64,000 nt of DNA, taken from NCBI RefSeq assembly GCF_017355885.1, contig NZ_JAFEUU010000003.1:124001-188000 (forward strand). Reading direction: 5' to 3'. The notes below the pieces were generated by a model. It was not told where the DNA came from. It saw only the letters and a program-made list of their open reading frames with translations, and searched no databases. Source of the stretch: Sabulicella rubraurantiaca (GTDB lineage: Bacteria; Pseudomonadota; Alphaproteobacteria; Acetobacterales; Acetobacteraceae). The translations under genes and the position numbers were made by a program. Positions 36,288 to 51,619 of the stretch are shown here, one piece after another. Position 1 is the first letter of the stretch. Every line of letters starts with the position of its first letter.

Positions 36288-37132
36288 CGCCGCGGGAGCG
36301 CCTGCGCGATTGGTCGCCCGCGCCGCTGCCGCGCGCCTCCCTCTGGTGGCATTGCGCGGCGCTGGGCGGGGTCGCCGCCATGCCCGCCCTCTGGGCCGAG
36401 GCGCTGGGCACGGTGGCGCTGAACCATCTCATCCTCGGCTGCGCGATGCACCCGCGCGCCGCGCTTCTCGGTCCCAATCTGCGCCGCCTGCCCGAACCGG
36501 CCGCCGGCGTGGCGCTGACCTTCGATGACGGGCCCGACCCGGAGGTGACGCCCCGCGTGCTGGACCTGCTGGACCGGTACGGGGCGCGCGCCACCTTCTT
36601 CTGCATCGGCCGCCGCGCCGCCCGGAATGGCCCCCTGCTGCGAGAGGCGCTGCGGCGCGGCCACGCGGTGGAGAACCATTCCCACCGGCATTCCCCTGCC
36701 TTCGCCGCGCGCGGCCCCCTCTGGCTGTGGCGGGAGGTGACGGAGGCGCAGGCCGCCATCGCCGATGCCACGGGCGTCGCGCCGCGCTTCTTCCGCGCGC
36801 CGATGGGGCTGCGCTCCCCGCTGCTGGACCCGGTGCTGGCGGCGGCGGGGCTGTCCCTCGTTTCCTGGACGCGGCGCGGCCACGACGCGCTATGGCGCGA
36901 CCCGCGCCGTGCCCTTCGCCGCCTGGCGGGCGGCCTGACCCCCGGCGACATCCTGCTGATGCATGACGGCAACGCGGCACGGCAGCGCTGCGGCACCCCG
37001 GTGGTGCTGGAGGTGCTGCCCGGATTGCTGGACGCGATGGCCCGCGCGGGGCTCAGCGCCGCCGCCTTGCCCGCCGCAGCAGCAGCACCGGAAGCCGCGG
37101 CACCATCCCCAGCACAAGCCGCGCATGCATGA
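36284..37132 (+). CDS. Polysaccharide deacetylase (NodB-type)
   Basis: 282 residues from GTG 36284 (GTGA overlap). After a hydrophobic N-terminus comes the NodB core: VALTFDDGPDPEVTPRVLDLLDRYGARATFF (motif 1, metal Asp pair), HAVENHSHRHSP (motif 2, His ligands), FFRAPMG (motif 3), SWTRRGHDA and LLMHDG. It removes N- or O-acetyl groups from a glycan or related substrate. It lies next to a glycosyltransferase on the other strand that overlaps its 3' end by 80 bases. Confidence 0.88.
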   Translation: MTPRERLRDWSPAPLPRASLWWHCAALGGVAAMPALWAEALGTVALNHLILGCAMHPRAALLGPNLRRLPEPAAGVALTFDDGPDPEVTPRVLDLLDRYGARATFFCIGRRAARNGPLLREALRRGHAVENHSHRHSPAFAARGPLWLWREVTEAQAAIADATGVAPRFFRAPMGLRSPLLDPVLAAAGLSLVSWTRRGHDALWRDPRRALRRLAGGLTPGDILLMHDGNAARQRCGTPVVLEVLPGLLDAMARAGLSAAALPAAAAAPEAAAPSPAQAAHA

Positions 37133-37811
37133 AGGTGAGCAGCGCGTTGTCCCGTCCGTAGCGGAAATGCGAAACGCCGCCCTCCGTGGCGGCGAGGTAG
37201 CGCACGGGGGCGGGCAGGTTCACGGCCGGCACCCCTGCCCAGGCGAGGCGCACCGCCGCCTCGGGGTCGAAGTCGAAGCGGCGCATCCAGGGATTGCGCT
37301 CCATCACCGCCAACAGCTTCGCGATAGGATAGACGCGGAAGCCGAACAGGGAATCCGCCACCGCGCCCAGGGTCTCCAGCCGCGTCCAGGCATTGGACAC
37401 GCGCCGTCCCTTCACCCGCAGCGCCGGCGCCTCCGCCCCGAAGACCGGCACGCCGAGGATCATCGCCTCCGGCGCCTGGGCTGAGGCTTCCATGAAGGCG
37501 GCGATGTGGCCGGCGGGGTGCTGCCCGTCGGAATCCATGGTGAGGGCGTGGGTGAAACCCGCCTTCGCCGCTTCGCGCAGCCCATGCTGCACCGCTGCGC
37601 CCTTGCCGCTGTTGCGCGGCAGGCGAAGCACGCGCAGCCCGGGATCCGTCCGCGCCATCTCCTCCACCGGGGCCTCGCTGCCGTCGGTGGAGCCATCCAC
37701 CACCACCCAGACCGGCGCCCAGGCCGCCCGCGCCTCCCGCACCGTCGCGGCGAGGTGCGGGCCGGAATTGTAGCTCGGGATCAGGACGAGGCGATGCGGG
37801 TCGGGCGTCAC
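37053..37811 (-). CDS. Family 2 glycosyltransferase, likely aryl-polyene-associated
   Basis: 252 residues from GTG 37811 (VTPDPHRLVLIPSYNSG). GT2 fold: LIPSYN, VVVDGSTDGS, GKGAAVQHGL and the DXD-like MDSDGQHP. No membrane helices of a polymerase type, so it is probably a single-sugar transferase like those in polyene clusters. The last 80 bases overlap the deacetylase gene in the opposite direction. Overlaps the following acyltransferase by four bases. Membership of the pathway is inference. Confidence 0.85.
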   Translation of the reverse strand: MTPDPHRLVLIPSYNSGPHLAATVREARAAWAPVWVVVDGSTDGSEAPVEEMARTDPGLRVLRLPRNSGKGAAVQHGLREAAKAGFTHALTMDSDGQHPAGHIAAFMEASAQAPEAMILGVPVFGAEAPALRVKGRRVSNAWTRLETLGAVADSLFGFRVYPIAKLLAVMERNPWMRRFDFDPEAAVRLAWAGVPAVNLPAPVRYLAATEGGVSHFRYGRDNALLTFMHARLVLGMVPRLPVLLLRRARRRR

Positions 37812-38563
37812 GCGAGGCTCGCGCGGATGTGGTCCTCGATGCGCCGGGTCAGCGCATTGGCCTCGCCCTCGGGCCCGAATCGCTCGCCCAGGCGGATGCG
37901 AAAGACCAGCGGCAGGACGGGGCGGCGCAGCAGCGGCCAGCCCTTCTGGAGATAGGGGCTGTCTGCCTCGATCAGCACGGTCTGCACCGTCGCGCCCACC
38001 TGACGCGCCAGCACCCCGAAGGAGCGGTGGAAAGGATCGAGCGGCGGGCGCTCGGTGCGCGACCCCTCGGGAAAGATCAGCAGCGTCGCGCCTTCGCGCA
38101 CCGCGGCGGCGGCACGGCGCATCATGGCGAGCGGCGCGTCGTTGCGGATGTAGCCGGCCAGCCGGATGCCGGGGCCGAGAAAGGCGTTGTCCCACAGCGA
38201 GGCCTTGGTGATGCACACCACCCGCGGCAGGCGCGAGATGAGCAGCACCGCATCCAGCATGCTGGGGTGGTTGGCGGCGATCACCAGCCCCCGCTCCCCG
38301 CGCAGCGTGTCGATGGCGGAGTAGTCCACCCGCAGCACGCCCGTGATCCGCATCACCCAGAGTGACCAGCGGAACCCGGCCATGATCGCGAATTGCCCGA
38401 CCCGCCGCCCCTTCTCCTCGGGCAGCAGGGGGCGCAGCACCAGGGCTGCGGCGCCCCAGAGCAGGCAGCTCGCGCCGAAGACGAAGAGGCACAGCGGAAA
38501 GGCGAAGGCATACCAGAGCCGCAAGGGCCATGGCTGGGGCGCGGGGGCCGTGCGGCGCGTCAT
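37808..38563 (-). CDS. PlsC-type lysophospholipid acyltransferase
   Basis: 251 residues from ATG 38563. An N-terminal membrane segment (PLRLWYAFAFPLCLFVFGASCLLWG), then VIAANHPSMLDAVLL (NHxxxxD catalytic box) and LLIFPEGSRTERPP (FPEG). It moves an acyl group from ACP or CoA to a lipid hydroxyl in the membrane. In polyene clusters a PlsC-like enzyme may attach the polyene to a lipid or sugar. It is divergent from the methyltransferase gene, with about 80 bases between starts. Confidence 0.85.
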   Translation of the reverse strand: MTRRTAPAPQPWPLRLWYAFAFPLCLFVFGASCLLWGAAALVLRPLLPEEKGRRVGQFAIMAGFRWSLWVMRITGVLRVDYSAIDTLRGERGLVIAANHPSMLDAVLLISRLPRVVCITKASLWDNAFLGPGIRLAGYIRNDAPLAMMRRAAAAVREGATLLIFPEGSRTERPPLDPFHRSFGVLARQVGATVQTVLIEADSPYLQKGWPLLRRPVLPLVFRIRLGERFGPEGEANALTRRIEDHIRASLA

Positions 38564-38644
38564 TTCGTGGCGAAGTTCCCTGGCGTGCCCTTGCCGCCAT
38601 GCTACACGTCCGGGCCGCAAGGGGTCCAGATTGGCCGGGGAAGC

Positions 38645-39394
38645 ATGAAAAGGGATGAGGCCGGGGCGGCGCCGCCGCATGGCGTGCTCAAGGAGTATTA
38701 CGAGGCCGCGCCGGACCGGCAGCGCTTCGTGCGTGACCTCTTCGACCGCACCGCCGGCGCCTATGACCGCATCAACAACGCCCTCGCCTTCGGCTCCGGC
38801 GGCTGGTACCGCCGCCAGGCCCTGCGGCGCGCCGGGCTGGCGCCGGGGATGCGGCTGCTGGACGTGGCGGTCGGCACCGGCGCCGTATCGCGCGAGGCGG
38901 TGCGGATCCTGGGCCGGGCGGAGGATGTCGTCGGCCTCGACCTCTCCGCCGGGATGCTGGCGGTAGCGCGGCGCAACCTGCCCATCCCGCTGCTGCAGGC
39001 GGAGGCGGAGGCCATCCCGCTGGCCGATGCGAGCGTGGATTTCGTCAGCATGGGCTACGCGCTGCGCCACGCGGGCGATCTGCGCGCCTTGTTTACCGAG
39101 TTCCGCCGCGTGCTGCGTCCCGGCGGGCGCGTGCTGCTGCTGGAGATCGCGCGGCCCGAAGGGCGGTTGGCGCTCGGCGCGGCGCGGTTCTGGCTGGGCC
39201 GCGTGGTGCCGGCCGCGAGCCACCTGCTCGGCCGCCGGGCGGCGCTCTTGATGCGCTACTACTGGGACACGATCGAGCATTGCGTCCCCCCTGCCGAGAT
39301 CCTCCGCCACCTGAACGAGGTCGGTTTCGCCGAGGTGGGCTGCGACGTCCAGCTTGGCGTGATGCGCGCCTATTCGGCCCGCAAGCCCGGATGA
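38645..39394 (+). CDS. UbiE-like SAM-dependent methyltransferase
   Basis: 249 residues. AGAYDRINNALAFGSGGWYRRQALRRAGL is close to UbiE, followed by the SAM loop LLDVAVGTGAVSREAV, then VGLDLSAGML and FVSMGYALRHAGDLRALFTEFRRVLRPGG, again UbiE-like. It may be the ubiquinone methyltransferase or a pathway-specific version acting on an aryl polyene head; the C-terminal half departs from typical UbiE. Its stop overlaps the next gene's start (ATGA). Confidence 0.82.
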   Translation: MKRDEAGAAPPHGVLKEYYEAAPDRQRFVRDLFDRTAGAYDRINNALAFGSGGWYRRQALRRAGLAPGMRLLDVAVGTGAVSREAVRILGRAEDVVGLDLSAGMLAVARRNLPIPLLQAEAEAIPLADASVDFVSMGYALRHAGDLRALFTEFRRVLRPGGRVLLLEIARPEGRLALGAARFWLGRVVPAASHLLGRRAALLMRYYWDTIEHCVPPAEILRHLNEVGFAEVGCDVQLGVMRAYSARKPG

Positions 39395-40065
39395 GCGGCA
39401 CGGAGCCGCCCGCGCTCTGGCCGCTGATGGAGCGCGTGGGCGCCCGCTACGCCGCGGCACCCGCCTGGTCGCGCGGCTTCGTGCGCGGCAAGCTTCTCAC
39501 CGACCCGGTGACGCCCGCGCTGCTGCGCCTGGCGGCCGCCTCCGGCGGGCTGGGGAGCCTCGTGGATCTGGGCTGCGGACGGGGGCAGACGGGGATCGCC
39601 CTTCTCCTGGCTGGGCTGGCGGGGGAGGTGACGGGGCTCGATCTCGACCCCGCCAAGATCCGCGACGCGACGGAGGCGGCGCAGGGCCTGCCCGCGCGCT
39701 TCGCCGTGGCCGATTTGTCGGTGGCGGATGTGCCCGAGGCGGACACGGCCATGATGCTGGACGTGCTGCTGCAGATGGAGGCGGCGGCCCAGCTTCCCCT
39801 GCTCCGGCGCATCGCCGCCGCCGCGCGGCGCCGCGTGCTGATCCGCGCCTTCGACCCCGCGGCCGGCTGGCGCGCTGCCCTGGGCAGCGCGATGGAGGAG
39901 GCGGGACGGCGCATCCGCCGCGACGGCTCGCATTTCCGGCCCATGGCGCTGGAGGCGCTGGCCGCTCCCTTCCGCGAGGCCGGTTTCCGGGTGCAGGTCG
40001 CCCCCTGCTGGGGCTGGACACCCCTGCCCAACGTGCTGCTGGTGGCGGAACGTGGCGACTCGTGA
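39391..40065 (+). CDS. Class I SAM-dependent methyltransferase
   Basis: 224 residues. SAM-binding LVDLGCGRGQTGIALLLAGLAGEVTGLDLDPAKI and VLLQMEAAAQLPLLRRIAAAARRRVLIRAFDP follow the usual Rossmann order; no aromatic-specific motif is evident. Translationally coupled to the UbiE-like gene and followed 117 bases later by the ACP operon, so a tailoring role in the polyene pathway is plausible. Confidence 0.78.
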   Translation: MSGTEPPALWPLMERVGARYAAAPAWSRGFVRGKLLTDPVTPALLRLAAASGGLGSLVDLGCGRGQTGIALLLAGLAGEVTGLDLDPAKIRDATEAAQGLPARFAVADLSVADVPEADTAMMLDVLLQMEAAAQLPLLRRIAAAARRRVLIRAFDPAAGWRAALGSAMEEAGRRIRRDGSHFRPMALEALAAPFREAGFRVQVAPCWGWTPLPNVLLVAERGDS

Positions 40066-40182
40066 TGAAACCGTAGCCTCCATCTCGCTTGCGAGGGGGT
40101 GGAGCGGATTGCTAACCTGCTCTCCGTAAAGGAAATGCCGTGCGATCCGCCTGTCCGGCTGCTGGTCGCCGAGTTAAGGAAC

Positions 40183-40491
40183 ATGACGACCGTGAATGCC
40201 ATGGCGAAGCCGCTCCCGCCGGGGATCGAAGAGACCCTCGCCATCGAGGAGGAGCTGAAGCGGCTCATCATCGAGGCGCTGTCCCTCGAGACCACGCCGG
40301 AGGAAATCGACGCCGAGGCGCCGCTCTTCGGCGACGGGCTGGGGCTCGATTCGATCGACGCGCTCGAGATCTCGCTGGTCGTGTCTAAGGCCTACGGGGT
40401 CCAGCTCCGGTCGGATGACGCGCAGAACCATCGGATCTTCGCGTCGCTGCGCTCCCTCGCCGCGCATGTCGCCGCTCAGCGCCTCCGCTGA
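40183..40491 (+). CDS. Acyl carrier protein of the aryl polyene operon
   Basis: 102 residues from ATG 40183 (AAGGA seven bases upstream). The phosphopantetheine site is GLDSIDALE (Ser in DSID), within a four-helix ACP: ELKRLIIEALSLETTPEEIDAEAPLFGDGLGLDSIDALEISLVV. First gene of the operon; it would carry the growing polyene on its 4'-phosphopantetheine arm. Only one ACP is seen here, whereas enterobacterial aryl polyene clusters have two. A poor TTGCGA/TAACCT promoter pair lies at 40089-40118. Confidence 0.92.
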   Translation: MTTVNAMAKPLPPGIEETLAIEEELKRLIIEALSLETTPEEIDAEAPLFGDGLGLDSIDALEISLVVSKAYGVQLRSDDAQNHRIFASLRSLAAHVAAQRLR

Positions 40492-41008
40492 CATCTCCCC
40501 GCTTCCGGCGGAACCGTCCCAGCCCAACCGGCGCCGCCTCCTCCTGGTGGTGCTGCCGATTGGCCTCGCGCTCTGGGGGTTCGAAGTGGCGGCGGGCGCC
40601 ACGCTCCTGCGCTGGGCCGGGCCCGCGGGCGGGGCGCTGCTGGCCGCTGTGGTGAACCTGCTGGTGGCGCTGCGATTCGGCCTGTCCCTGCGCGCCGGGC
40701 GGATGCCGCTGATCTCCCATTACGCACGCTTCGACCGCCAAGGCTTGCCGCCCGAGGTCGAGGGCTACACACGCGCCCTCACGGCGCTCTGGGCTGGGCT
40801 GCTGCTGCTGGCGGCGCTGGCGCATCTGCTTCCGCTGCTGGGGCTCGGGCGCACGGGGGTGATCCTGGCCGCGCAGGCATTCCTGCTCCTCGGCGTCTTC
40901 CTGGGCGAGCACGCGGTTCGCGCCCGCCGCTTCCCGCAGCTTCGCCCCGTCACGCCCTGGGGCACGCTGGGGGCCATCGGCCGCAGCCTGGGCGCGCGCC
41001 ATGGCTGA
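40466..41008 (+). CDS. COG4648-type inner-membrane protein of aryl polyene clusters
   Basis: 180 residues from ATG 40466, overlapping the ACP gene by 26 bases. Hydrophobic helices are grouped as about 20-70 and 100-155 (LLLVVLPIGLALWGFEVAAG, GPAGGALLAAVVNLLVALRFG, and two later ones). ACP followed by this COG4648 protein and an acyl-ACP ligase is the recognised order in aryl polyene operons. Function unproven, thought to help membrane handling of the product. Confidence 0.75.
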   Translation: MSPLSASADISPLPAEPSQPNRRRLLLVVLPIGLALWGFEVAAGATLLRWAGPAGGALLAAVVNLLVALRFGLSLRAGRMPLISHYARFDRQGLPPEVEGYTRALTALWAGLLLLAALAHLLPLLGLGRTGVILAAQAFLLLGVFLGEHAVRARRFPQLRPVTPWGTLGAIGRSLGARHG

Positions 41009-42317
41009 GTCCCTGCCCCTCCTGCCGCGCCCGGCGGGGGAGGCGATCGCGTTCCGGAAAGGGCTTCCGCTCTCTGTCGCCGAGTTCCGGCGCGAAGCCT
41101 CGGCATTGGCCGCGCGCCTGCCCACGCAGGGCCATGCGGTGGATCTCTGCGCCGACCGTTCGCACTCCCTCGTCGCCTTTGCCGCCGCCGTGCTGCGCGG
41201 GCATCCGGTGCTGCTGGGCGGTGGTCGGGCCGGGGCGGCGCAGTTCCTCCCCACCGCCGCCGCGCGCTTTCCCGATGCCTATGTGCTGGCCGACGCGCCC
41301 GTGCCCGGATGCCCCCTGCCTGTGATCCGCGTGGATGGCGCACCGCCCGGCGGCGAGGCGCCGCCCTGGCCGGACATCCCGGCCGGTCGCATCGCCGCCA
41401 TCGCCTTCACCTCCGGCTCCACGGGCGCGCCGAGCGCCCACCTCAAGCCCTGGGGGGCGCTGGTCGCCGCGGCGGAGGCTGCCGCCACGCGCTTCGGCCT
41501 GCGCCACGGGGACGGCCCGCTCGCCGCCATTGCCGCCACCGTCCCGGCCCAGCACATGTACGGCTTCGAGACGACGATCATGCTGCCGCTCCAGGCGCAG
41601 GTGGCGATCGAGGCGAAGGAGACTTTCTTCCCCGGCGACGTGCTGGCGGCGCTGGAGCGCCTGCCGGGCCGCCGCATCCTCGTCACAACGCCGCTGCACC
41701 TGCGTGCCCTGCTGTCTGGCGATGCGCCCGCCCGCTCGCCTGCCGCCGTGATCTCCGCCACCGCGCCCTTAGCGCGCGAATTGGCGGCTTCGGTGGAGGT
41801 GCGCTGGGAGGCGCCGGTGCTGGAGATCTATGGCGCCTCCGAGGCAGGCTCCGTCGCCAGCCGCCGCACGGTGGAGGAGGATTCCTGGCTCCCCTATCCC
41901 GGCATCGCGATGGAGGAGGCGGCGGCGCTGGTGCCGGGGCTGGGCCGCGTGAAGCTCGGCGATGCGCTGGAGATGCTGTCCGACAGCCGCTTCCGCCTGC
42001 TGGGCCGCATCGCCGACATCGTGAAGCTCGGCGGCAAGCGTGCCTCGTTGGGCGAGTTGAATCGCGCCCTGGCCGATGTGGAAGGGGTGGAGGACGGCGT
42101 CTTCGTCGTGCCCGACGACCTGGAGCAGAACCCCGCCGCCCGGCTTTCCGCCCTGGTGGTGGCTCCTGGCCGCAGCGCGGAGGACATCCTGCTCGGGCTG
42201 CGGCGGCGGCTCGACCCAGCCTTCCTGCCGCGCCGCCTCCGGCTGGTGGAGGCGCTGCCGCGCGACGCGCTGGGCAAGCTGCCCCGCCACGCCCTGCTGG
42301 CCCTGGAGGGAAAGTGA
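41001..42317 (+). CDS. AMP-dependent acyl-ACP ligase (ApeH-like)
   Basis: 438 residues, shorter than a typical acyl-CoA synthetase. P-loop AIAFTSGSTGAPSAHLKPW, GASEAGSVASRR (the YG-S-E motif as IYGASEAG), and C-terminal LGRIADIVKLGGKRASLGELN and LPRDALGKLPRHALL with the catalytic Lys near the end (DALGKLPR). It should activate an aromatic acid (hydroxybenzoate type in known systems) and load it on the ACP. Start overlaps the upstream stop by eight bases. Confidence 0.88.
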   Translation: MAESLPLLPRPAGEAIAFRKGLPLSVAEFRREASALAARLPTQGHAVDLCADRSHSLVAFAAAVLRGHPVLLGGGRAGAAQFLPTAAARFPDAYVLADAPVPGCPLPVIRVDGAPPGGEAPPWPDIPAGRIAAIAFTSGSTGAPSAHLKPWGALVAAAEAAATRFGLRHGDGPLAAIAATVPAQHMYGFETTIMLPLQAQVAIEAKETFFPGDVLAALERLPGRRILVTTPLHLRALLSGDAPARSPAAVISATAPLARELAASVEVRWEAPVLEIYGASEAGSVASRRTVEEDSWLPYPGIAMEEAAALVPGLGRVKLGDALEMLSDSRFRLLGRIADIVKLGGKRASLGELNRALADVEGVEDGVFVVPDDLEQNPAARLSALVVAPGRSAEDILLGLRRRLDPAFLPRRLRLVEALPRDALGKLPRHALLALEGK

Positions 42318-42607
42318 CGCGCTTCGCCATCCCGGCGGACCATCCCAGCCTGCCTGGCCATTTCCCGGGCCTCCCCATCGTGCCCGGCGTCCTGCTGCTG
42401 GATGAAGTGATGCAGGCCATCGCCCGGCGGGACGGGACGGCGCCTACCGCGCTGCTGCGCGCCAAGTTCACCGCTCCCGTCGCGCCGGAGGAGGCAGTGG
42501 AGCTGGAGCTGGGTCCGCCCGGAGCGCGCGTGTCCTTCACCTGCCGCGTGGGCGCGCGCGTGGTCGCACGGGGGGAGTTCGGATGCCCGTCGGCACCCTC
42601 CCGCTGA
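42314..42607 (+). CDS. Hotdog-fold 3-hydroxyacyl-ACP dehydratase (ApeI-like)
   Basis: 97 residues from GTG 42314 (GTGA overlap). HPSLPGHFPGLPIVPGVLLLDEVMQA matches the FabA/FabZ H-F-P-x-P-P-V-P-G dehydratase motif with the catalytic His and, in the helix, an Asp/Glu. Short, one hotdog unit, as in ApeI-like dehydratases. Removes water from the beta-hydroxyacyl-ACP to form the conjugated double bond. Its end overlaps the next gene start by 25 bases. Confidence 0.85.
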   Translation: MTRFAIPADHPSLPGHFPGLPIVPGVLLLDEVMQAIARRDGTAPTALLRAKFTAPVAPEEAVELELGPPGARVSFTCRVGARVVARGEFGCPSAPSR

Positions 42608-43518
42608 ACTCCTCTCCCGCCGCGTCACCGGACTGGCGCGCGGCGCCCGAGCGCGGCTCGCCCGCGTTGCTGCGGCTGATGACGGTGATCGCCCTGCGCC
42701 TCGGCTGGCGCGTGGGCCATGCGCTGCTCTTCCCCATCACCGCCTATTTCCTGCTGACGGCGCCGCGCCCGCGCCACGCCTCGCGCGAGTTCCTGCGCCG
42801 CGCCCTCGGGCGGGAGGCGGGGTGGCGCGATCTGTGGCATCTGTATTTCAGCTTCAGCAGCACCATCCTCGACCGTGTGTGGCTCTGCACCGGGCGCACT
42901 GAGGAGTTCCGGCTGGAAATGCGCGGGCTGGACGAACTGCGCGAGCGCATGGCGCAGGGCAGGGGGGTGCTGCTGATGGGCGCCCATCTCGGCTCCTTCG
43001 AGGCGATGCGCGCCGTGGCGGATGCCGGCTGCCCGGTGGAGCTGGCCGTGCTGATGCACGAGGGCAATGCCGCCCGCGTGAAGCAATGGGCCGATGCGCT
43101 GGGGGGCGAGGCGCGCGCCGCCGCCATCATCCCGCTGGGCCAGCCCGACGCCATGCTGCGCGTGCGCGAATGCCTCGAGCGCGGCGGGCTGGTGGGTCTG
43201 CTGGCCGACCGCGCGCCGGAAGGGGCGCGCATGGTCTCCTTCCCCTTCCTCGGCGCGCCTGCGGCCTTCCCCGCGGGGCCGCACCAACTGGCCGCGGTGC
43301 TGGGCGTTCCGGTGATGCTGGCCTTCGGGCTGCGCCGCGGGCCGCGCCACTACGAGGTGCGCTTCGAGCCCTTCGAAGATCTTGCCGCCCCAGTTGCCCG
43401 CGCCGGGCGGGAGGATTTTCTGCACCGGTCGCTCGGCCGCTACGCGGCGCGGCTGGAGGACACCGCTCGGGAGGCACCCGACAACTGGTTCAACTTCCAC
43501 CGGTTCTGGGGCGCGTGA
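42583..43518 (+). CDS. HtrB/LpxL-like lipid acyltransferase of the polyene operon
   Basis: 311 residues. A membrane-anchor region (about 38-58) precedes VLLMGAHLGSFEAMRAV (a variant of the HxxxxxD/E catalytic box, H then E) and GLLADRAPEGARMVSFPFLGAPAAFPAGP, as in lauroyl/myristoyl acyltransferases of lipid A. In E. coli this activity is fused with a glycosyltransferase (ApeJ type); here the two are separate genes, the GT2 lying at 37053. Likely attaches a fatty chain to anchor the polyene. Confidence 0.85.
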   Translation: MPVGTLPLNSSPAASPDWRAAPERGSPALLRLMTVIALRLGWRVGHALLFPITAYFLLTAPRPRHASREFLRRALGREAGWRDLWHLYFSFSSTILDRVWLCTGRTEEFRLEMRGLDELRERMAQGRGVLLMGAHLGSFEAMRAVADAGCPVELAVLMHEGNAARVKQWADALGGEARAAAIIPLGQPDAMLRVRECLERGGLVGLLADRAPEGARMVSFPFLGAPAAFPAGPHQLAAVLGVPVMLAFGLRRGPRHYEVRFEPFEDLAAPVARAGREDFLHRSLGRYAARLEDTAREAPDNWFNFHRFWGA

Positions 43519-44081
43519 GGCGGCGCTTCCTCCTTGCCGCCGCGCTGGCGTTTCCGGGCGTGGCCCAGACGGAGACGCCGCTGGAGGCGCAGATGCGCCG
43601 GATGGCTGGGGTACGCAGCCGCCGCTCCCGCTTCGAGGAGGAGCGCGCCCTGCCCGAGCTGGACGTGCCCATCCCCTATAGCGGCACCCTGAGCTGGCAG
43701 GCGCCCGACCGGCTGGAGAAGCACACGACCTCGCCCATCGAAGAGCGCCTGACCGTCGCCGGGCCGCGCCTCACCTGGGAGCGACCGGATCGCGGCCAGC
43801 GCCAGGACTTCGCCCTCGCCAGCCAGCCCGAGATGGCGGCGCTGGTGGAGGCGGTGCGCGCCACGCTGGCCGGCGACCTCGCCACCTTGCAGCGCCACTA
43901 CGACATCCGCTTCGACCCGGCCGCCGACGGCAGCTGGAGCCTACGCCTCATCCCTTCCTCGCTGCGGCTGCGCGGGATGGTGCAGCGCCTTACCTTGCGG
44001 GGCGAGGGGACGGAGGTGCTGGAGGTGGAAACCCAGGAGGGCGGTGGGATCAGCCGCATGAGGATCTTCCCCCTCCCTTGA
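43515..44081 (+). CDS. LolA-like periplasmic carrier of the polyene operon
   Basis: 188 residues from GTG 43515 (GTGA overlap). Signal peptide (RRRFLLAAALAFPGVAQ), then QMRRMAGVRSRRSRFEEERAL, GTLSWQAPDRLEKHTT and later beta strands of the LolA fold. Such operon-specific LolA-like proteins are proposed to carry the lipid-linked polyene across the periplasm. Its last base is the first base of the next start. Confidence 0.82.
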   Translation: MRRRFLLAAALAFPGVAQTETPLEAQMRRMAGVRSRRSRFEEERALPELDVPIPYSGTLSWQAPDRLEKHTTSPIEERLTVAGPRLTWERPDRGQRQDFALASQPEMAALVEAVRATLAGDLATLQRHYDIRFDPAADGSWSLRLIPSSLRLRGMVQRLTLRGEGTEVLEVETQEGGGISRMRIFPLP

Positions 44082-46378
44082 TGCGACCCCTCCTGGCCCT
44101 GCTCCTGCTCGCCGCGCTGTGCGGCGCGCTGCTGGCCCGCCAACCGCCGCGCGCGGATCTCGCGGAGTTCCTGCCGCCGGGCAACAGCCCGGCCAGTGCC
44201 TTCCTGTTCCGCGAGCTGCGCTCGGGCGCGGCCACCACGCTGCTCCTCGCCGCCATCGAGGGGGCGCCGCGCGCCGAGATGGCACGGCTGTCGCGCGAGA
44301 CGGCGGCCTCGCTGCGCGCCTCGGGCCGCTTCTCTTTCGTGGGCGACGGCACGCTGCGCCTGGGCGAGGCGGAGGAAGCCTTCCTGTTCCGCCACCGCTA
44401 CCTCCTCTCCGACGAGACGCGCCCGGAGGCCTTCACGGCAGAGGCGCTGCGTCCTCGCCTGGAGGCGCTGCTGGACGGGCTCCGCAGCGCCGCGGCGCCG
44501 CTGCTGGCCCGCTTCGGCTTTGCCGACCCGACCGGTGCCTTTCCCCGCCTCGCCATGCGCTGGCTGGGGGAGAACCGGTTGGAAAACAGCGATGGCGCTT
44601 GGTTCACCGCCGATGGCCGCCGCGTGCTGTTGCTGGCCCGCTCCGCTGGCGGGGGGCTGGATGCGGAGGCGCAGCGCGAAGCCATGGACGCCTTCCGCGA
44701 GGGCTTCGCCACCGCCAGCCCACCCCCTGGCGCGCGGCTTCTCCTGAGCGGCCCCGGCGTCTTCGCGGCAGAGGCCGCCGCCTCCATCCGCGCGGATGTC
44801 GAGCTCGCCTCGGGGCTCGGTGCCGGGCTGCTGGCCCTGTTCCTGTTCTGGCGCTTCCGCTCGGCGGCGCTGCTGCTGCTGGTGGCGGTGCCGCTGCTGG
44901 CGGGCGCCCTGGCGGGCTACGCGCTGACGCTGCTGGTCTTCGGCTCCGTGCATGCGGTGGCGCTGGGCTTCGGCATGACCATGCTCGGTGTCACGGTAGA
45001 CTACCCCATCCTGCTGTTGACCCTGCGCCGCCCCGGCGAGGCGATGGGGGATGCGGCGCGGCGGCTCTGGCCGACGCTGCGCCTCGCGGCGGCGGCGGCG
45101 GCGGCGGGGCTGGTTGCCATGCTGGGTTCCGGCCTGCCGGGGCTGGCGCAACTCGGCACCTTCGCGGCGGCGGGGGTGTTGGTCGCGGCGCTGGCGACGC
45201 GCTGGCTTCTGCCGCGCCTGGCGCCGCCCGGCTTCGCGTCGGAGCCCCAGGCACTGCCGGCGATGGTGCTGCGGCCGCTGCGCGCCCTGCAAGGGCGGCG
45301 GGCCCTGGCGGCGGGGGCCATGGCACTGGCCGCGCTTGCCCTGCTCGCTTCGGGCGGTCCGCGCCTGCAACGCGACATGGCCGCGCTTTCCCCCGTTCCG
45401 GCGGCGCAGCAGAACCTGGACGCGGAACTGCGCGCGGCGCTCGGCGCGCCCGACGTGCGGGCGCTGTTCGTGATCGGCCCCGCCGCCTCGACGGAGGAGG
45501 CGCTGCGAGGCGCGGAGGCGCTGCGCCAAGCCGCCGCGCCGCTTCTCGCGCGCGGGCTGCTGGCGGGGCTCGACCTCCCCTCCGATTGGCTGCCTTCCCT
45601 CGCGACGCAGCGGGAGCGGCAGGCGGCGCTGCCCGCGGCGGAGGATCTCGCCGAGGCGCTGCGCACGGCCGCGGTCGGGCTGCCCTTCCGCCCCACGGCC
45701 TTTGGCCGCTTCGAGGCGGCGGTGGTGGAAAGCCGCGCCCTCGACCCCGTCACCACTGCGGCCTTCGCGCGCGAGGCCCCCGTGCTTTCCGCGCGGCTTT
45801 CGCCCCTTCTCGCCCAGCAGGGCGATGCGCATTGGGCCATCGCCCCCGCCAGCGGCGTCTCCGATCCCCTGGCGCTGGAAGCGGCAGCGGCGGGGCTGGG
45901 CCTGCCGGGCGTCGCTTTCCTGGACACCAAGCTGGAGATGGAGCGGCTGCTGCTCGCCTATGGGGCGGCCACGCTGGGCTGGGCGGCGGCGGGTGGGGCG
46001 CTTGTCCTGCTGATCCTCGGCTGGGGGCTGGGCGGGCTGCGCCCGGCGCTGCGCGCGGCGGGGCCGATCGGGGGCGCGCTGCTCCTGGCCCTTGCCGTCC
46101 TCGCCCTGGCGGGCGAGGCGCTGAACCTGTTCCACCTCGCCGCTCTTTTGCTGCTGGCGGGACTTGCCATAGATTATGCGCTGTTCCTCGCCCGCGCCGA
46201 GATGGACCCACGCACCTTGGAAGCCGTTCTGTCCTGCGTCCTTTCCACGCTCCTGACCTTCGGCCTCCTGCTGGTCTGTGAAACCCCGGTGCTGCGCGGC
46301 ATCGGCCTCACCGTGAGCGCGGGGGTCGCCTCGGCCTTCCTGCTCGCCCTGGCCCTCCTGCCCCGGCAGGTGGCATGA
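44081..46378 (+). CDS. MMPL/RND-type exporter of the polyene operon
   Basis: 765 residues from ATG 44081. Two repeats, each a single N-terminal helix, a large periplasmic domain (about 25-230 and 420-620) and a bundle of hydrophobic helices (about 235-400 and 625-760). SVHAVALGFGMTMLGVTVDYPILLLTL holds the conserved acidic residue of MMPL transporters in helix 4 (VDYP); the second copy has LAGLAIDYALFLARA (IDYA). A proton-driven lifter of lipid-linked polyene. The 45087-45106 GCG run encodes a poly-Ala segment. Confidence 0.9.
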   Translation: MRPLLALLLLAALCGALLARQPPRADLAEFLPPGNSPASAFLFRELRSGAATTLLLAAIEGAPRAEMARLSRETAASLRASGRFSFVGDGTLRLGEAEEAFLFRHRYLLSDETRPEAFTAEALRPRLEALLDGLRSAAAPLLARFGFADPTGAFPRLAMRWLGENRLENSDGAWFTADGRRVLLLARSAGGGLDAEAQREAMDAFREGFATASPPPGARLLLSGPGVFAAEAAASIRADVELASGLGAGLLALFLFWRFRSAALLLLVAVPLLAGALAGYALTLLVFGSVHAVALGFGMTMLGVTVDYPILLLTLRRPGEAMGDAARRLWPTLRLAAAAAAAGLVAMLGSGLPGLAQLGTFAAAGVLVAALATRWLLPRLAPPGFASEPQALPAMVLRPLRALQGRRALAAGAMALAALALLASGGPRLQRDMAALSPVPAAQQNLDAELRAALGAPDVRALFVIGPAASTEEALRGAEALRQAAAPLLARGLLAGLDLPSDWLPSLATQRERQAALPAAEDLAEALRTAAVGLPFRPTAFGRFEAAVVESRALDPVTTAAFAREAPVLSARLSPLLAQQGDAHWAIAPASGVSDPLALEAAAAGLGLPGVAFLDTKLEMERLLLAYGAATLGWAAAGGALVLLILGWGLGGLRPALRAAGPIGGALLLALAVLALAGEALNLFHLAALLLLAGLAIDYALFLARAEMDPRTLEAVLSCVLSTLLTFGLLLVCETPVLRGIGLTVSAGVASAFLLALALLPRQVA

Positions 46379-47583
46379 GCGGCCGCGCTTCCCCCTGGCC
46401 GCTGGCGATCTCGGCCCGGACGGTGGTGACGGCGCTGGGGGCGGGGGTCGAACCGCTCCGGGCGGCGCTGCGCGACCGCGCCTCCGGCCTCGCCCCCGCG
46501 CGTTTCCCCGGTGCGCCGGACGGCATCTGGACCGGCGAGGTGCCGGGGCTGGAGGAGGCCGCCCCACCGCCCGAGCTCGCCGGCTTCGACTGCCGCAACA
46601 ACCGCATCGCCGAACTCGCCCTGCGCGCCGACGGCTTCGCCGAGGCGGTGCGGGAAGTCGCCGCGCGCCATGGGGCGCACCGCATCGCCGTGGTGGTCGG
46701 CACCAGCACCGCCGGCATCGAGGAAACCGAGCAGGCCTATCGCCGCCGCCCGGAGGGACAGGCGGAGCTGCCCGCCGATTTCGACTATGGCCGCACCCAC
46801 GACCTCCAGGCCCTGCCGCGCTATCTCCAGTCCCGTCTGGGGCTGACGGGACCGGCGCTGGTTATCTCCACCGCCTGCACCTCCGGCGCCCGCGCCATCA
46901 TGGAGGCGGCGACGCTCATCGCCGCGGGCGTGGCGGATGCCGTGGTGGCGGGCGGGGTGGACAGCTTGTGCCGGCTGACGCTGCAGGGGTTCAACGCGCT
47001 GGAGTTGCTGAGCCGCGGCCCCACCCGCCCCTGCGCGGGCGATCGCGACGGCATCTCCATCGGCGAGGCGGCGGGTCTGCTGCTGCTGGAGCGCCCGGCG
47101 GACGCGCCCCCCGGCGCCACGCTGCTGCTGGGCGCGGGGGCCAGCAGCGACGGCCACCACATGTCCTCGCCGCATCCCGAAGGGCTGGGCGCCGTCTCCG
47201 CCATGCGCGCCGCGCTCGATTGCGCCGGGATCGCCCCGGAGGAGATCGGCTACGTCAACCTGCACGGCACCGGCACCCGCGCCAATGACGCGATGGAAGA
47301 CCGGGCGGTGCACCACCTCTTCGGCCAGGCCGTGCCGTGTTCCTCGACCAAAGGCTGGACGGGCCACACGCTCGGCGCTTCAGGGGCCATCGAGGCGGTG
47401 ATCGGTGCGCTCTGCGTCGAGGAGGGGCTGGTGCCCGGCTGCCTGCGCGTGGACAGCCCCGACCCGGAATTCCGCTCCGACATCGTGACGGAGAACCGGG
47501 CGGCCCCGCTGCGCCGGGTCCTCAGCAATTCCTTCGGCTTCGGCGGCAGCAATTGCTCGCTGGTCATCGGCCGCCCCGCGTGA
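46375..47583 (+). CDS. Beta-ketoacyl-ACP synthase of the polyene operon
   Basis: 402 residues, thiolase fold. Active Cys168 in VISTACTSGAR, His297 in NLHGTGTR and His331 with Lys326 in SSTKGWTGHTLGASG make a complete C-H-H ketosynthase; SNSFGFGGSNCSLVIG at the C-terminus is FabF-like. It elongates the polyene with malonyl-ACP. It pairs with the following cysteine-less partner. The start overlaps the exporter's stop (ATGA). Confidence 0.92.
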   Translation: MSGRASPWPLAISARTVVTALGAGVEPLRAALRDRASGLAPARFPGAPDGIWTGEVPGLEEAAPPPELAGFDCRNNRIAELALRADGFAEAVREVAARHGAHRIAVVVGTSTAGIEETEQAYRRRPEGQAELPADFDYGRTHDLQALPRYLQSRLGLTGPALVISTACTSGARAIMEAATLIAAGVADAVVAGGVDSLCRLTLQGFNALELLSRGPTRPCAGDRDGISIGEAAGLLLLERPADAPPGATLLLGAGASSDGHHMSSPHPEGLGAVSAMRAALDCAGIAPEEIGYVNLHGTGTRANDAMEDRAVHHLFGQAVPCSSTKGWTGHTLGASGAIEAVIGALCVEEGLVPGCLRVDSPDPEFRSDIVTENRAAPLRRVLSNSFGFGGSNCSLVIGRPA

Positions 47584-47590
47584 GGGGCGC

Positions 47591-48382
47591 ATGATCCGCT
47601 GCTCCGTGCATGGGGTCTCCGTCTGGGGCCCCGGCCTGCCCGGATGGGCGGCGAGCGAGGCCGTGCTGGCCGGATCTTCCCCTTGGGAAGCGGCGGAATG
47701 CGCCGTGCCCGCCCCCGCCCTGCTCTCCCCCACGGAGCGCCGCCGGGCCGGGGCCACCACGCGCCTCGCCCTCGCCGCCGCCGCCGAGGCGACGGAAGCG
47801 GAGCCTGATCGCGCGGCGCTGGAAACGGTGTTCAGCAGCGCCAATGGCGACGGCGCCGTGGTGGGGGCGCTGATGGAGGCGCTGCAGGCGGAGGAGGTCG
47901 CGCTCTCGCCCACGCAGTTCCACAACTCGGTGCACAATGCGGCGGCGGGGTACTGGCACATCGCGGTCGGCTCCACCCACCCCTCCCTGTCGCTGGGTGG
48001 ACATGATGCGGCCTTCGGCGCGGGGCTGCTGGCGGCGGCGGCTTCGGCTTCGGTGCGCGGCGGGCCGGTGCTGCTTTGTGCCTATGACGTGCCCATGCCG
48101 GCGCCGCTGCACGGGGCCCGGCCCACCGCGTTTCCCTTCGCCGCCGCGCTGGTGCTGCGCCAGGCCGACTCTCCTGGCGCGCGCGCCGTGCTGGAACTCA
48201 CCCCGCGCCCCGGCCCGGCGCCCGAGGCTTCTCCGGACGATGCGCTGATGGCGCTGGAGACAGGCAACCCCGCCGCCCGCGCCCTGCCGTTGCTGCGCGC
48301 CCTGGCGGCGCGGCGCGATTCCGTGCAGCGCCTCGCCTCCGGCCCTGAGAGTCACCTGGAGCTGCGCTGCATTCCATGCTGA
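47591..48382 (+). CDS. Ketosynthase-like chain-length factor (ApeC-like)
   Basis: 263 residues, a ketosynthase-like half-fold. The place of the active Cys reads TQFHNSVHNAAAGYWHIAVGS, with no nucleophilic Cys, and the His residues in HNSVHN are those of the 'beta-ketoacyl synthase chain length factor' family (ApeC-like). By analogy with type II polyketide systems it should pair with the upstream ketosynthase and set chain length. Eight bases follow the KS stop before it. Confidence 0.85.
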   Translation: MIRCSVHGVSVWGPGLPGWAASEAVLAGSSPWEAAECAVPAPALLSPTERRRAGATTRLALAAAAEATEAEPDRAALETVFSSANGDGAVVGALMEALQAEEVALSPTQFHNSVHNAAAGYWHIAVGSTHPSLSLGGHDAAFGAGLLAAAASASVRGGPVLLCAYDVPMPAPLHGARPTAFPFAAALVLRQADSPGARAVLELTPRPGPAPEASPDDALMALETGNPAARALPLLRALAARRDSVQRLASGPESHLELRCIPC

Positions 48383-48804
48383 CCCTGCCCGGCGACGCGG
48401 CTGCGGTCGCGCGCCTCGTGCCACATGCCGGTTCCATGTCCCTGCTCGACCGGGTGCTGCATTGGGAGGAGGGCCGCATCCTCTGCGAGACCGCGCGCCA
48501 CCGCGACCCTGCCCACCCGCTGCGCCGCGACGGCATCCTGCCCGCGATCTGCGGCGTCGAGTTCGCCCTGCAGGCCATGGCGCTGCACGGCGCGCTGGGC
48601 GAGGGGGCGGCGCAGCGCCGGGGCTTCGTTTCCTCCCTGCGCGACGTGTCCCTGCGCCTTGCCCTGCTGGACGAGGTGCCCGGTCCCCTGGAGGTGGAGG
48701 CCGAGGCGCTGGTGGCCGAGGCCTCTGGCTTCATCTACCGCTTCGCCATCCGGGGCGAGGGAGAAGCGCTTCTGGAGGGCCAGGCGGCCGTGATCCTCGC
48801 ATGA
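48376..48804 (+). CDS. ApeP-like hotdog dehydratase
   Basis: 142 residues. LVPHAGSMSLLDRVLHWEEGRILCETARH has the conserved PHAGxMxLLDxV and ILPAICGVEFALQAMALHGAL motif with a His/Glu pair, as in ApeP-type dehydratases. A second, distinct dehydratase for the polyene cycle. Overlaps the previous gene by seven bases and the ketoreductase start by four. Confidence 0.88.
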   Translation: MLTLPGDAAAVARLVPHAGSMSLLDRVLHWEEGRILCETARHRDPAHPLRRDGILPAICGVEFALQAMALHGALGEGAAQRRGFVSSLRDVSLRLALLDEVPGPLEVEAEALVAEASGFIYRFAIRGEGEALLEGQAAVILA

Positions 48805-49529
48805 CGACCAGCCGCCGCGCCTTGGTGACGGGCGGTGCCAGCCCGCTGGGCGGAGCCATGTCCCGCCACCTCGCCGCGCAGGGGCATGAGGTGCTGATCC
48901 ACGCCCATGCCGGGCTGGAGCGCGCCGAGGCGCTGGCGGGGGAGATCCGCGCCGGGGGCGGGCGCGCCTCGGCGATGGGCTTCGACCTTTCGGACGTACC
49001 CGGCACCGCCGCCGCGCTGGAGTGCGCCCTGGCGGATGGGCCGGTGCAGATCCTGGTCCACAATGCCGGCATCCATGACGACGTGCCCCTGGCCGCGATG
49101 ACCGAGGCGCAGTGGCGGGGCGTGGTGGAGGTGTCGCTGACCGGCTTCTATGCCGCGCTGCGGCCGCTGATCATGCCGATGATGGGCACGCGCTGGGGCC
49201 GCGTCGTCGCCATCTCCTCCATCTCCGGCCTGATGGGGAATCGCGGGCAGGCGGCCTATGCCGCCGCCAAGGCCGGGCTGATCGGCGCGGTGAAGACCGT
49301 CTCGCTCGAATACGCCTCGCGCGGGGTCACGGCCAATGCCGTGGCGCCCGGCATCATCGAGAGCCCGGCCGTCTCGGCCGCCCTGCCGCCTGAGCGTATC
49401 CGGGAGATGGTGCCCGCCCGCCGCGCCGGGCGGCCGGAGGAGGTGGCGGCGGTGGTGGGCTTCCTGTGCTCCGACGCCGCCAGCTATGTCAGCGGGCAGG
49501 TGATCGCGGTCAGTGGCGGGCTGGGCTGA
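48801..49529 (+). CDS. 3-oxoacyl-ACP reductase (FabG/ApeQ-like)
   Basis: 242 residues from ATG 48801. NADPH loop RRALVTGGASPLGGAMSRHL (TGGxxxLGG), NAG motif VHNAGIHDD, and the Ser-Tyr-Lys catalytic set: ISSISG, and YAAAKAG. GFLCSDAASYVSGQVIAVSGG closes the domain. It reduces the beta-keto group in each polyene cycle. It ends the operon, and its last 20 bases overlap the convergent lipoprotein gene. Confidence 0.92.
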   Translation: MTTSRRALVTGGASPLGGAMSRHLAAQGHEVLIHAHAGLERAEALAGEIRAGGGRASAMGFDLSDVPGTAAALECALADGPVQILVHNAGIHDDVPLAAMTEAQWRGVVEVSLTGFYAALRPLIMPMMGTRWGRVVAISSISGLMGNRGQAAYAAAKAGLIGAVKTVSLEYASRGVTANAVAPGIIESPAVSAALPPERIREMVPARRAGRPEEVAAVVGFLCSDAASYVSGQVIAVSGGLG

Positions 49530-49917
49530 ATCCGCCCATGGCGGATTCGCGCATGATGGCGTTCCGCAGGTTCTGCACCCAGGAATTGTAGTTCGGGTGG
49601 ATCGTGCCGGCCGAGGCATTGAGGTTGGTGCTGTCCACGTAGCGGATGCGGAAGCGGTTCCGGTCGTAGGGAATGTCCACCACCGCCTGGTGCGAGCGGA
49701 GGTTCAGCGTGCCGCGCATCAGACCGGGCTGGAAATCCGACATGGACCAGCCGAGCGAGGCGCCGGCGCGGCGGATCTGCAAGGCCCGATCCGAGAGGTT
49801 GCCCGGCCCCTGGAACTCGCCATCTACCTCCGAGACCAGAGCGGCTTGGCGCCCGCAGGCGGCGATGGCGGGCAGGGTGAGGGCGAGAAGCAGGAGGGTG
49901 CGGCGTTGCGCGGTCAT
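49510..49917 (-). CDS. Predicted lipoprotein, unknown function
   Basis: 135 residues from ATG 49917. Lipoprotein signal with AAC lipobox (LPAIAACG). The mature part has a strand-rich core: LGWSMSDFQPGLMRGTLNLRSHQAVVDIPYDRNRFRIRYVD, then IHPNYNSWVQNLRNAI. The IHPNYNSWVQNL stretch is shared by many small uncharacterised outer-membrane-associated lipoproteins. Convergent with the ketoreductase; a role in the polyene pathway is unproven. Confidence 0.65.
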   Translation of the reverse strand: MTAQRRTLLLLALTLPAIAACGRQAALVSEVDGEFQGPGNLSDRALQIRRAGASLGWSMSDFQPGLMRGTLNLRSHQAVVDIPYDRNRFRIRYVDSTNLNASAGTIHPNYNSWVQNLRNAIMRESAMGGFSPARH

Positions 49918-50024
49918 GGCGTGTTCCCCTTGATCAGGCGGCGGGATGATGGCGCTGCTTCCCAGGCACGGCAAGCCAAAGCAGATCTTGCGGCGCACCG
50001 GGCTGCACCACATGCTCCCACCTC

Positions 50025-50216: not shown

Positions 50217-50283
50217 AGCAGCTTCAAGCCGGGCGGGATCGCCCGATGGCTCGGAACATGCGCCCGGGCAACGATCTGACGCG

Positions 50284-51579
50284 CTACTCCGCTGGTGCCA
50301 GCGCCGTCGGCTCCTCGGGCATGCGGGGGCCGAGGCCGAAGCGGTGCAGCGCCGACAGAACGTGGAACACCGCCTTGAAGCTTAGGATCGGCAAGGTGGC
50401 GCGCGGGTCGCCACGGAGATTGCCAGCCAGCATGTTGATGATGCCATCGCGCATCCACAGCGTGTTGCGCGGCGCCATGAAGAGCGAGCGCAGCACCGGG
50501 TCGTTGATGCGGTAGATCAGCCAGCTGATGCGGTCCATCGCGTCAGCCAGTTCGCGATTGGTGCGCGCCGCCAGGCGCTGCCCGCGCGCCGGGTTGTCCA
50601 GCCAGGCATGGGCGGCTTCCGCACCCAGCTCGCCCGCCGTCATCGCCATCAGCACGCCGGTCGAAAACATCGGGTCCACGAAGCCATAGGCGTCGCCGAT
50701 CATCAGGAAGTTGTCACCGAAGCCCTGGCGCGCGCGGTAGCTGTAGTTGCCGGTGCTGTAGATGTCGCTGACCATCCGCGCGCCGCGCAGCCGGTCCGAC
50801 ACGGTGGGGGAGGAGGCGATGCGCGCCGCGAACACCTCCTGCGCCGCGCCCTTGCGGTTCTTCCAGGCGGATTGGTTGCCGACGAAGCCGACGCTCATCA
50901 CGTCGCCCGGCAGCGGGATCAGCCAGAACCAGCCATCCTCCGCGAGGTGGATGGAGATGTAGCCCTCCAGCTCCCCGGTGCGGCGCTCCACCCCCTCGAA
51001 GTGGGCGTACATGGCAGCGGTGTTATTGTACTTGTTGGTGTCCTTCACCCGCATCCGCCCGGCGAGGAAGGTGTCGCGCCCGGAGGCGTCCAGCACGTAG
51101 CGGGGGCGGAACTCCAGCGCTTCCTTGTCCGGCCCTTCGGCGAGGACGGTGGCACGCTCGCCCGGCGCGCCGAAGCGGATGTCGGTGACGCGCACGCGCT
51201 CCCGCGCATCGGCGCCCTTGCGGCGGGCATTGCTGAAAAGCAGCGCGTCGAAATCCGAGCGCCGCACCTGCCACGAGCTGGTGCGCGAGCGGTTGAGCGC
51301 CTTTGCGAAGGGGAAGGCGCAGGACCGCCCGGTGCGGTCGCTCACGAACTCGGCGCCCGGCTTGTGCACGCCGATGCCGCGCACCTCCTCCAGCACGCCC
51401 AGGCGTTCCAGGATGTCCAGGTTGCGCGGCAGCAGGCTCTCGCCGATGTGGAAGCGCGGATGCGCCTCCTTTTCCAGCAGCGTGACGGAGCGCCCCTGCA
51501 TGGCGAGGAGGGCGGCGGCGGTGGAGCCCGCCGGCCCCCCGCCCACGATGAGGATGTCTGGTGAAGCGGTGCCGGGCAT
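50284..51579 (-). CDS. Flavin-dependent halogenase-like monooxygenase
   Basis: 431 residues from ATG 51579. FAD-binding GGGPAGS (13-19), HIGESLLP (44-51), Lys73 in GVHKPGAEF at the place of the catalytic Lys, WFWLIP (217-222) fitting the halogenase WxWxIP motif, and FVDPMFSTG (300-308) fitting the FxxPxxSxG motif. These are the two accepted family markers. Related genes occur in xanthomonadin (brominated aryl polyene) clusters. Halide and substrate are not predictable from sequence alone; simple hydroxylation is the alternative. Confidence 0.82.
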   Translation of the reverse strand: MPGTASPDILIVGGGPAGSTAAALLAMQGRSVTLLEKEAHPRFHIGESLLPRNLDILERLGVLEEVRGIGVHKPGAEFVSDRTGRSCAFPFAKALNRSRTSSWQVRRSDFDALLFSNARRKGADARERVRVTDIRFGAPGERATVLAEGPDKEALEFRPRYVLDASGRDTFLAGRMRVKDTNKYNNTAAMYAHFEGVERRTGELEGYISIHLAEDGWFWLIPLPGDVMSVGFVGNQSAWKNRKGAAQEVFAARIASSPTVSDRLRGARMVSDIYSTGNYSYRARQGFGDNFLMIGDAYGFVDPMFSTGVLMAMTAGELGAEAAHAWLDNPARGQRLAARTNRELADAMDRISWLIYRINDPVLRSLFMAPRNTLWMRDGIINMLAGNLRGDPRATLPILSFKAVFHVLSALHRFGLGPRMPEEPTALAPAE

Positions 51580-51619
51580 GGCGCGAAGGCAGCGCAGCCT
51601 CCGGCCCCCTGTCAAGCGG

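Follow-up and report, generated by a model that had tools for sequence, protein, structure and literature searches.

The window analysed here is a 64,000-nucleotide stretch of Sabulicella rubraurantiaca (contig NZ_JAFEUU010000003.1, positions 124,001 to 188,000), and it carries a putative pigment cluster around an operon of eleven genes at 40183–49529. Judged from its genes, this is very probably an aryl polyene (APE) cluster of the xanthomonadin/arcuflavin layout and an Acetobacteraceae member of that type. The most likely product is a membrane-anchored, probably halogenated aryl polyene, a yellow membrane pigment. The APE assignment is based on the best matches of the window proteins to ape proteins, a ten-gene order found in 43 of 54 loci, and the placing of the ketosynthase (KS) with the solved structures 7f28 and 6qsp. 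It is further based on the near-identical gene set of the arcuflavin cluster, the loss of pigment in Lysobacter deletion mutants, and the confinement of the halogenase to KS-positive genomes. The predicted system extends past the operon to about 36251–51582, where a polysaccharide deacetylase, two methyltransferases and, on the minus strand, a glycosyltransferase and an ApeD-like acyltransferase lie upstream and a lipoprotein and a halogenase downstream.

Eleven reading frames, all on the plus strand, make up the core operon. The sequence-only reading had described eleven closely packed genes, and both frames and spacings were borne out in the DNA. With the starts as chosen, the spacings in gene order are −26, −8, −4, −25, −4, −4, −4, +7, −7 and −4 bases; neighbouring genes overlap by 4 to 26 bases and the single gap measures 7 bases. 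The gene content named in that reading also agrees with the family and profile matches: an acyl carrier protein (ACP), a ligase, two dehydratases (DH1 and DH2), a ketoreductase (KR), a KS with its chain-length factor (CLF) partner, an acyltransferase, a LolA-like carrier and an MMPL pump. Pfam matches were obtained for nine of the eleven genes, and neither the second gene nor DH2 has a family match in Pfam or NCBIfam. On inspection of the sequences, the catalytic residues C168, H297 and H331 are intact in the KS; a DSI motif (S57) is present in the ACP and a YAAAK motif in the KR. By eye, the CLF is without a TAC[ST]S motif. APE class features found here include an ApeO-type KS beside an ApeC-type half-size CLF, an ApeH-type ligase with a dedicated ACP, a KR and two dehydratases (ApeQ, ApeI and ApeP), and genes for lipid attachment and LolA/MMPL transport. 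The structure 6QSP is the Xenorhabdus ApeO-ApeC pair (PMC8358021), and 7f28 is presumably the Acinetobacter ApeO-ApeC pair.

Nineteen window proteins were compared by BLASTP with the 18 ape proteins of Escherichia coli CFT073. Best matches cover ApeA, C, D, E, G, H, I, J, L, M, O and Q, and ApeP was recovered by profile comparison, giving the window counterparts of thirteen proteins of the described E. coli cluster (PMC8253772). This correspondence gives good support to the aryl polyene pathway proposed in the sequence-only reading. The eleven core genes represent ApeE, G, H, I, the acyltransferase half of J, L, M, O, C, P and Q. ApeJ is split, with its glycosyltransferase half encoded separately on the minus strand and its acyltransferase half inside the operon. 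Beyond these counterparts, the E. coli cluster has ApeF as a further ACP, ApeR as third KS, the thioesterase ApeK, ApeN, ApeB and a fused ApeJ; a halogenase is found in the window and not in E. coli (PMC8253772). In tblastn searches of the window, ApeB, ApeK and ApeN gave no match with E. coli queries, nor did ApeK and ApeN with alphaproteobacterial copies. Searches for the ApeK thioesterase and ApeN (DUF3261) were likewise negative across the window and three 20 kb stretches of the same genome, to which they were confined. Queries with ApeF and ApeR (E. coli and two alphaproteobacterial copies each) recovered in the window just the cluster's own ACP and KS, respectively, consistent with the earlier claim of one ACP and one active KS. 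The absence of a second ACP, third KS and thioesterase and the separate glycosyltransferase, all noted from the sequence, agree with these searches. Beyond that gene list, the window holds a family 2 glycosyltransferase (the N-terminal half of ApeJ), a PlsC-type acyltransferase (ApeD) and a lipoprotein (ApeA), and ApeN and ApeB join the undetected proteins.

Single ACP, single active KS and split ApeJ are features of the xanthomonadin/arcuflavin layout found here, while its XanB2-type chorismatase was not found. The enterobacterial-type (apeA-R) features ApeF plus ApeR and ApeK plus ApeN were also not found. Xanthomonadin clusters are described as being without a second ACP (PMC8253772). The arcuflavin cluster of Azoarcus sp. 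BH72 resembles the window in having the KS arcK with arcJ, a protein consisting of the N-terminal KS domain only, two dehydratases, a KR, an AMP-ligase and an ACP, and also acyltransferases, a separate glycosyltransferase, LolA, an exporter, a methyltransferase, a polysaccharide deacetylase and a halogenase (PMC3949708). As described, it differs by occupying two chromosomal places, by its dialkylresorcinol linkage and by the chorismatase arcB (PMC3949708); the window cluster forms one block, in which chorismatase and dialkylresorcinol genes were not detected. By its description, the Lysobacter enzymogenes cluster also shares one ACP, a KS with a CLF-like half-size partner, a KR, two dehydratases and a separate glycosyltransferase-like gene, and the account of it lists no thioesterase gene (PMC3691225). 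Deletion of the KS, ACP, KR or CLF-like ORF16 abolishes the pigment in Lysobacter (PMC3691225). The same account gives Lysobacter a XanB2 homolog (ORF5) and no halogenase, the reverse of the window. In Acinetobacter, ApeO-ApeC alone yields the fully elongated polyene, and ApeR raises the throughput (PMC8358021). A survey of Acetobacteraceae reported APE clusters with a linked probable halogenase, in 19 of 43 members of the acidophilic group and 28 of 96 of the acetous group; like the window, these clusters combine a KS-linked adenylate-forming enzyme, a probable halogenase and transport genes (PMC8776678).

A panel of 60 genomes including that of the strain itself was searched for the KS at E ≤ 1e-60. 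Fourteen genomes were positive, namely the strain's own, 4 of 20 from the same genus, 7 of 15 from the same family and 2 of 24 from the same class. The loci of the 13 KS-positive relatives comprise ten compact ones (L026–L035) and three of the full enterobacterial type (L036–L038) with ApeF, ApeK and an ApeR at 55–58% identity. Because two of these three are from the same family, compact and full layouts coexist within one bacterial family. Ten compact loci among 13 also indicate a cluster far beyond chance. L028 and L030 are truncated at contig ends, and L030 is without a KR match. A scan of 84,980 species genomes yielded at least 586 confirmed stretches, from which the best 80 loci, ranked by likeness to the window KS, were kept; counts drawn from them describe a limited set selected for that likeness. 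In the pooled set of 93 loci, 58 hold ACP, ligase, MMPL, KS and KR at 20 bits (55 compact, 3 full); the other 35, which include short contigs, rearranged clusters, the truncated L028 and L030, and the KR-less L030, L049, L050, L053 and L054, have at least one of these below 20 bits and were left out. Removal of L045, a duplicate of L029, leaves 54 distinct compact loci, with L047 (Rhodospirillales) counted under Acetobacteraceae. The ten-gene order is identical and on one strand in the 43 loci given above, including all 18 from Acetobacteraceae, and the compact order spans alpha-, beta- and gammaproteobacteria and one Nitrospira. ApeK and ApeN have no match in any of the 54. One ACP frame is present in 52 of the 55 compact loci and two in the other three. 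An additional KS frame nearest to ApeR occurs in 10 of the 55, scoring 62–212 bits versus 508–540 bits in the three full clusters, so a further KS of another type may lie close to some of the compact clusters. The compact layout is an established, widespread form of the pathway, not a new streamlined one.

A RefSeq-annotated counterpart of the window cluster, which also speaks for the APE assignment, lies on plasmid p546-1 of Roseomonas haemaphysalidis. The two share the order from ACP to KR and a glycosyltransferase, acyltransferase, methyltransferases, deacetylase and halogenase close by. The plasmid differs from the window by extra MipA/OmpV-family and cation:proton antiporter genes and by a halogenase on the same strand. 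Among the papers listed in a search of open-licence literature, judged by title and abstract start, none dealt with the product or starter of this Roseomonas-type branch, which is a weak negative.

At E ≤ 1e-60 the halogenase was found in 11 of the 60 genomes, that of the strain among them, and each of the 11 is one of the 14 KS-positive genomes, in a survey that scored for many genomes only part of the first-look candidates. The naive hypergeometric probability of this co-occurrence is 1e-9, a figure that shared ancestry makes weaker. One halogenase-bearing genome (G034) has a cluster of the full type, and in three draft genomes (G023, G030 and G034) halogenase and KS lie on different contigs. 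The top NCBIfam model of the window protein, CmlS, reaches 192 of 900 bits, far under its cut-off. Its WFWLIP and GGGPAG motifs are halogenase motifs, and together with PF04820 they lead us to guess at a halogenase reaction. The predicted enzyme is a further feature shared with the layout, being present in Xanthomonas and arcuflavin clusters and absent from Lysobacter. Xanthomonadins are brominated, and Xanthomonas clusters hold a halogenase gene (PMC3691225).

The origin of the aromatic starter without a chorismatase is a testable question raised by the cluster. XanB2-type chorismatase frames, counted with two query frames, accompany 18 of the 36 compact loci outside Acetobacteraceae and none of the 18 within; because only half of the former have one, the enzyme was not treated as defining for the layout. 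The corresponding family (PF21168) was not detected in the strain's own genome, with four of five comparator genomes positive, and in 41 genomes the enzyme was found once, beside the G049 cluster. Weighing against a family-wide absence, the Bombella-type loci L050, L053 and L054, which have no KR and fall outside the counted set, carry a chorismatase-like frame at 128–142 bits. UbiC (PF04345) gave no match in any of the 41 genomes, and its absence is thus not informative for this strain in particular. The single PF00221 match, the sole ammonia-lyase of the genome, is of the histidine type: it passes the histidine ammonia-lyase cut-off and falls far short of the one for the flexirubin tyrosine ammonia-lyase. 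The aromatic acid would therefore have another source, unless its enzyme has diverged beyond the reach of the models used. Priming by cinnamate or coumarate, as for flexirubin, instead of hydroxybenzoate is an unlikely alternative: it draws on the chorismatase-free Acetobacteraceae loci and on the ligase, whose top NCBIfam model is 4-coumarate-CoA ligase at 113 bits, far below the cut-off of 335. The histidine-type ammonia-lyase and the uninformative UbiC result argue against it, as does E. coli, where general metabolism supplies the 4-hydroxybenzoate (PMC8253772).

In the Lysobacter CLF-like ORF16, one glutamine (Q166) is essential (PMC3691225). Position 152 of the window CLF (region 48028–48050), possibly in the same column, is a serine, and glutamine occupies it in 61 of 93 aligned rows, a tally that keeps the duplicate pair L045/L029 and includes the window and E. 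coli rows. One might speculate, with considerable doubt, that the Roseomonas-type branch is a chemically distinct xanthomonadin-type sub-branch, with a halogenated aryl polyene, a starter from neither a XanB2-type chorismatase nor UbiC, and a CLF without the helix-6 glutamine essential in Lysobacter.

From 64 KS rows a quick maximum-likelihood tree was built, with SH-aLRT as its sole support measure. The window KS falls there in a clade of 25 rows (support 100) made up of Acetobacteraceae and related bacteria, and its closest neighbours are same-genus rows, Belnapia and Roseicella. L035, from the same family, groups with L034 among betaproteobacterial rows, and L031, from the same genus, falls in the opposite half of the clade; these placements indicate that vertical descent alone does not account for KS inheritance. 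E. coli ApeO and the full-type rows form an unresolved base outside the clade, and the root is untrustworthy because the FabF outgroup is very long. The sequence-only reading had called the cluster a possible streamlined variant. The compact form is real and its differences from the enterobacterial cluster were given correctly, but the cluster is not a one-off, and the arrangement of one ACP with one KS/CLF pair had already been published (PMC3691225, PMC3949708, PMC8253772). Streamlining itself is not established, since no result indicates which layout is ancestral. It is quite improbable that the window holds a lineage-specific streamlined pathway descended from a cluster of enterobacterial type that lost ApeF, ApeR, ApeK and ApeN. 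All four are missing in the window and three relatives have the full type, but the spread of the compact order over three proteobacterial classes and Nitrospira speaks against a recent local loss, and the full-type KSs of the same family fall outside the window KS's clade. Least probable is a non-aromatic polyene or fatty-acid-like lipid made with a ligase activating another acid, since, for all the likeness of KS, KR and dehydratases to fatty acid enzymes and the 27% identity of the ligase to ApeH, the full set with half-size CLF, LolA/MMPL export and halogenase tracks the aryl polyene clusters of known pigments.

Several points weigh against an APE cluster of the xanthomonadin/arcuflavin layout. 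Its distribution is patchy, with the KS in just four of the 20 same-genus genomes. The MMPL, LolA and ligase proteins are only 23–28% identical to their E. coli counterparts. The MAFFT alignment of KS and CLF set the CLF N-terminus on the KS active site and gave no column-wise reading of the CLF cysteine. Searches of the genome with PF04345, PF01947, PF21168 and PF00221 revealed no recognised starter-supplying enzyme.

For an APE cluster of this layout we infer the following route, product and anchor. The ligase would load an aromatic acid on the single ACP, and the KS with its half-size CLF would add malonyl units repeatedly. The KR and the two dehydratases would convert each keto group to a double bond, so that a conjugated aryl polyene results. 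Joining it to a lipid anchor would be the task of the acyltransferases and the glycosyltransferase, and the MMPL pump and the LolA-like carrier would then deliver it to the outer membrane. Decoration of the polyene is probably due to the halogenase and the methyltransferases. The cluster supports one ACP and one KS/CLF pair as a common arrangement in a large branch of APE clusters; the enterobacterial pathway, with its two ACPs and the help of ApeR, is therefore not to be regarded as the norm. Being contiguous, it is also a candidate for expression in a family from which, according to the survey, none of these metabolites has been purified (PMC8776678).

Matches to the ACP domain occur at four places of the 5.0 Mb assembly. 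One lies next to a KS gene at C36:89 kb, and the two are presumably AcpP and FabF; the others are in a type I polyketide synthase frame, in a set on contig C11, and in the window cluster. One phosphopantetheinyl transferase domain was found in the genome, so this single AcpS-sized enzyme may have to activate the cluster ACP too. The C11 set (L021, G000:C11:368001-388000, 10530–13743) has an ACP and two KS genes and is the sole free-standing type II set seen besides AcpP/FabF and the cluster. Its ACP passes the PRK06508 cut-off, whereas the models closest to its two KSs, PRK06519 and PRK06501, are matched below their cut-offs. We take this set to be the alphaproteobacterial very-long-chain fatty acid genes of lipid A. 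As a source of the second ACP and ApeR it was rejected, its full-length KS being only 35–36% identical to ApeR copies versus 55–58% in the full-type relatives, and it could in principle assist the APE pathway. The large type I polyketide synthase frame (G000:C36:230756-237694, L023) is open over 2441 residues, contains KS and ACP domains and lies about 43 kb past the window end.

Features of the predicted APE system in the window, with supporting matches (percentages are identities unless called profile matches; compact loci are the 54 distinct ones)
Feature	Coordinates	Strand	Evidence
Polysaccharide deacetylase, associated, role uncertain; arcN counterpart by description	36251..37132	+	PF01522, 3e-28; ≥20 bits in 42/54 compact loci (11/18 Acetobacteraceae, 31/36 others)
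Glycosyltransferase family 2, N-terminal half of ApeJ	37053..37841	-	39% over 239 aa to ApeJ; PF00535; match in 41/54 compact loci
PlsC-type acyltransferase, ApeD-like, start codon uncertain	37838..38608	-	35% over 149 aa to ApeD; PF01553; match in 29/54 compact loci
UbiE-type methyltransferase, probable tailoring enzyme	38642..39394	+	PF01209, 8e-28; match in 21/54 compact loci
Second methyltransferase-like protein, possible tailoring enzyme	39391..40065	+	PF13649, 3e-9; match in 19/54 compact loci, some weak
ACP, ApeE-like, sole ACP of the cluster	40183..40491	+	51% to ApeE, 32% to ApeF; PF00550; NF006617 above cut-off; DSI motif (S57)
ApeG-like (COG4648) membrane protein	40466..41008	+	30% over 109 aa to ApeG; profile match 99.2%; earlier start 40415 possible
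AMP-forming aryl-ACP ligase, ApeH-like	41001..42317	+	27% over 449 aa to ApeH, 8e-22; PF00501
DH1, ApeI-like	42314..42607	+	PF07977; profile match 98.9% to ApeI
LpxL-type acyltransferase, C-terminal half of ApeJ	42583..43518	+	33% over 297 aa to ApeJ; PF03279
LolA-like periplasmic carrier, ApeL-like	43515..44081	+	PF19574; profile match 99.4% to ApeL
MMPL/RND exporter, ApeM-like	44078..46378	+	28% over 691 aa to ApeM; PF03176
KS, ApeO-like	46375..47583	+	41% over 401 aa to ApeO; PF00109/PF02801; NF006618 501 bits, cut-off 407; top solved structures 7f28_B, 6qsp_A
Half-size CLF, ApeC-like	47591..48382	+	PF13723; profile match 99.3% to ApeC; sole solved-structure matches 7f28_A, 6qsp_B
DH2, ApeP-like	48376..48804	+	profile match 98.7% to ApeP
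KR, ApeQ-like	48801..49529	+	39% over 243 aa to ApeQ; PF13561/PF00106; FabG model NF004200 above cut-off
ApeA-like lipoprotein	49510..49917	-	32% over 127 aa to ApeA, 1e-18; no Pfam or NCBIfam match
Flavin-dependent halogenase-like protein, probable tailoring enzyme	50284..51582	-	PF04820, 4e-30; WFWLIP and GGGPAG motifs

Some loci of the comparison show peculiarities of their own. A KR match is absent from the stretches of L030, L049, L050, L053 and L054 despite the presence of KS, CLF and DH2; a KR gene at another site, or the KR of fatty acid synthesis, may serve these clusters. L034 and L035 have an additional open frame between MMPL and KS, about 400 codons long and beginning like a lipoprotein, which has no counterpart in the window. 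A KS match on a Variovorax plasmid has no annotated cluster around it. Downstream of the system in the window lie a MarR-type regulator followed by cytochrome bd oxidase subunit I (53161–55148, plus strand) and, about 5 kb past the halogenase, an IS110-family transposase (56418–57467, minus strand; PF02371 and PF01548).

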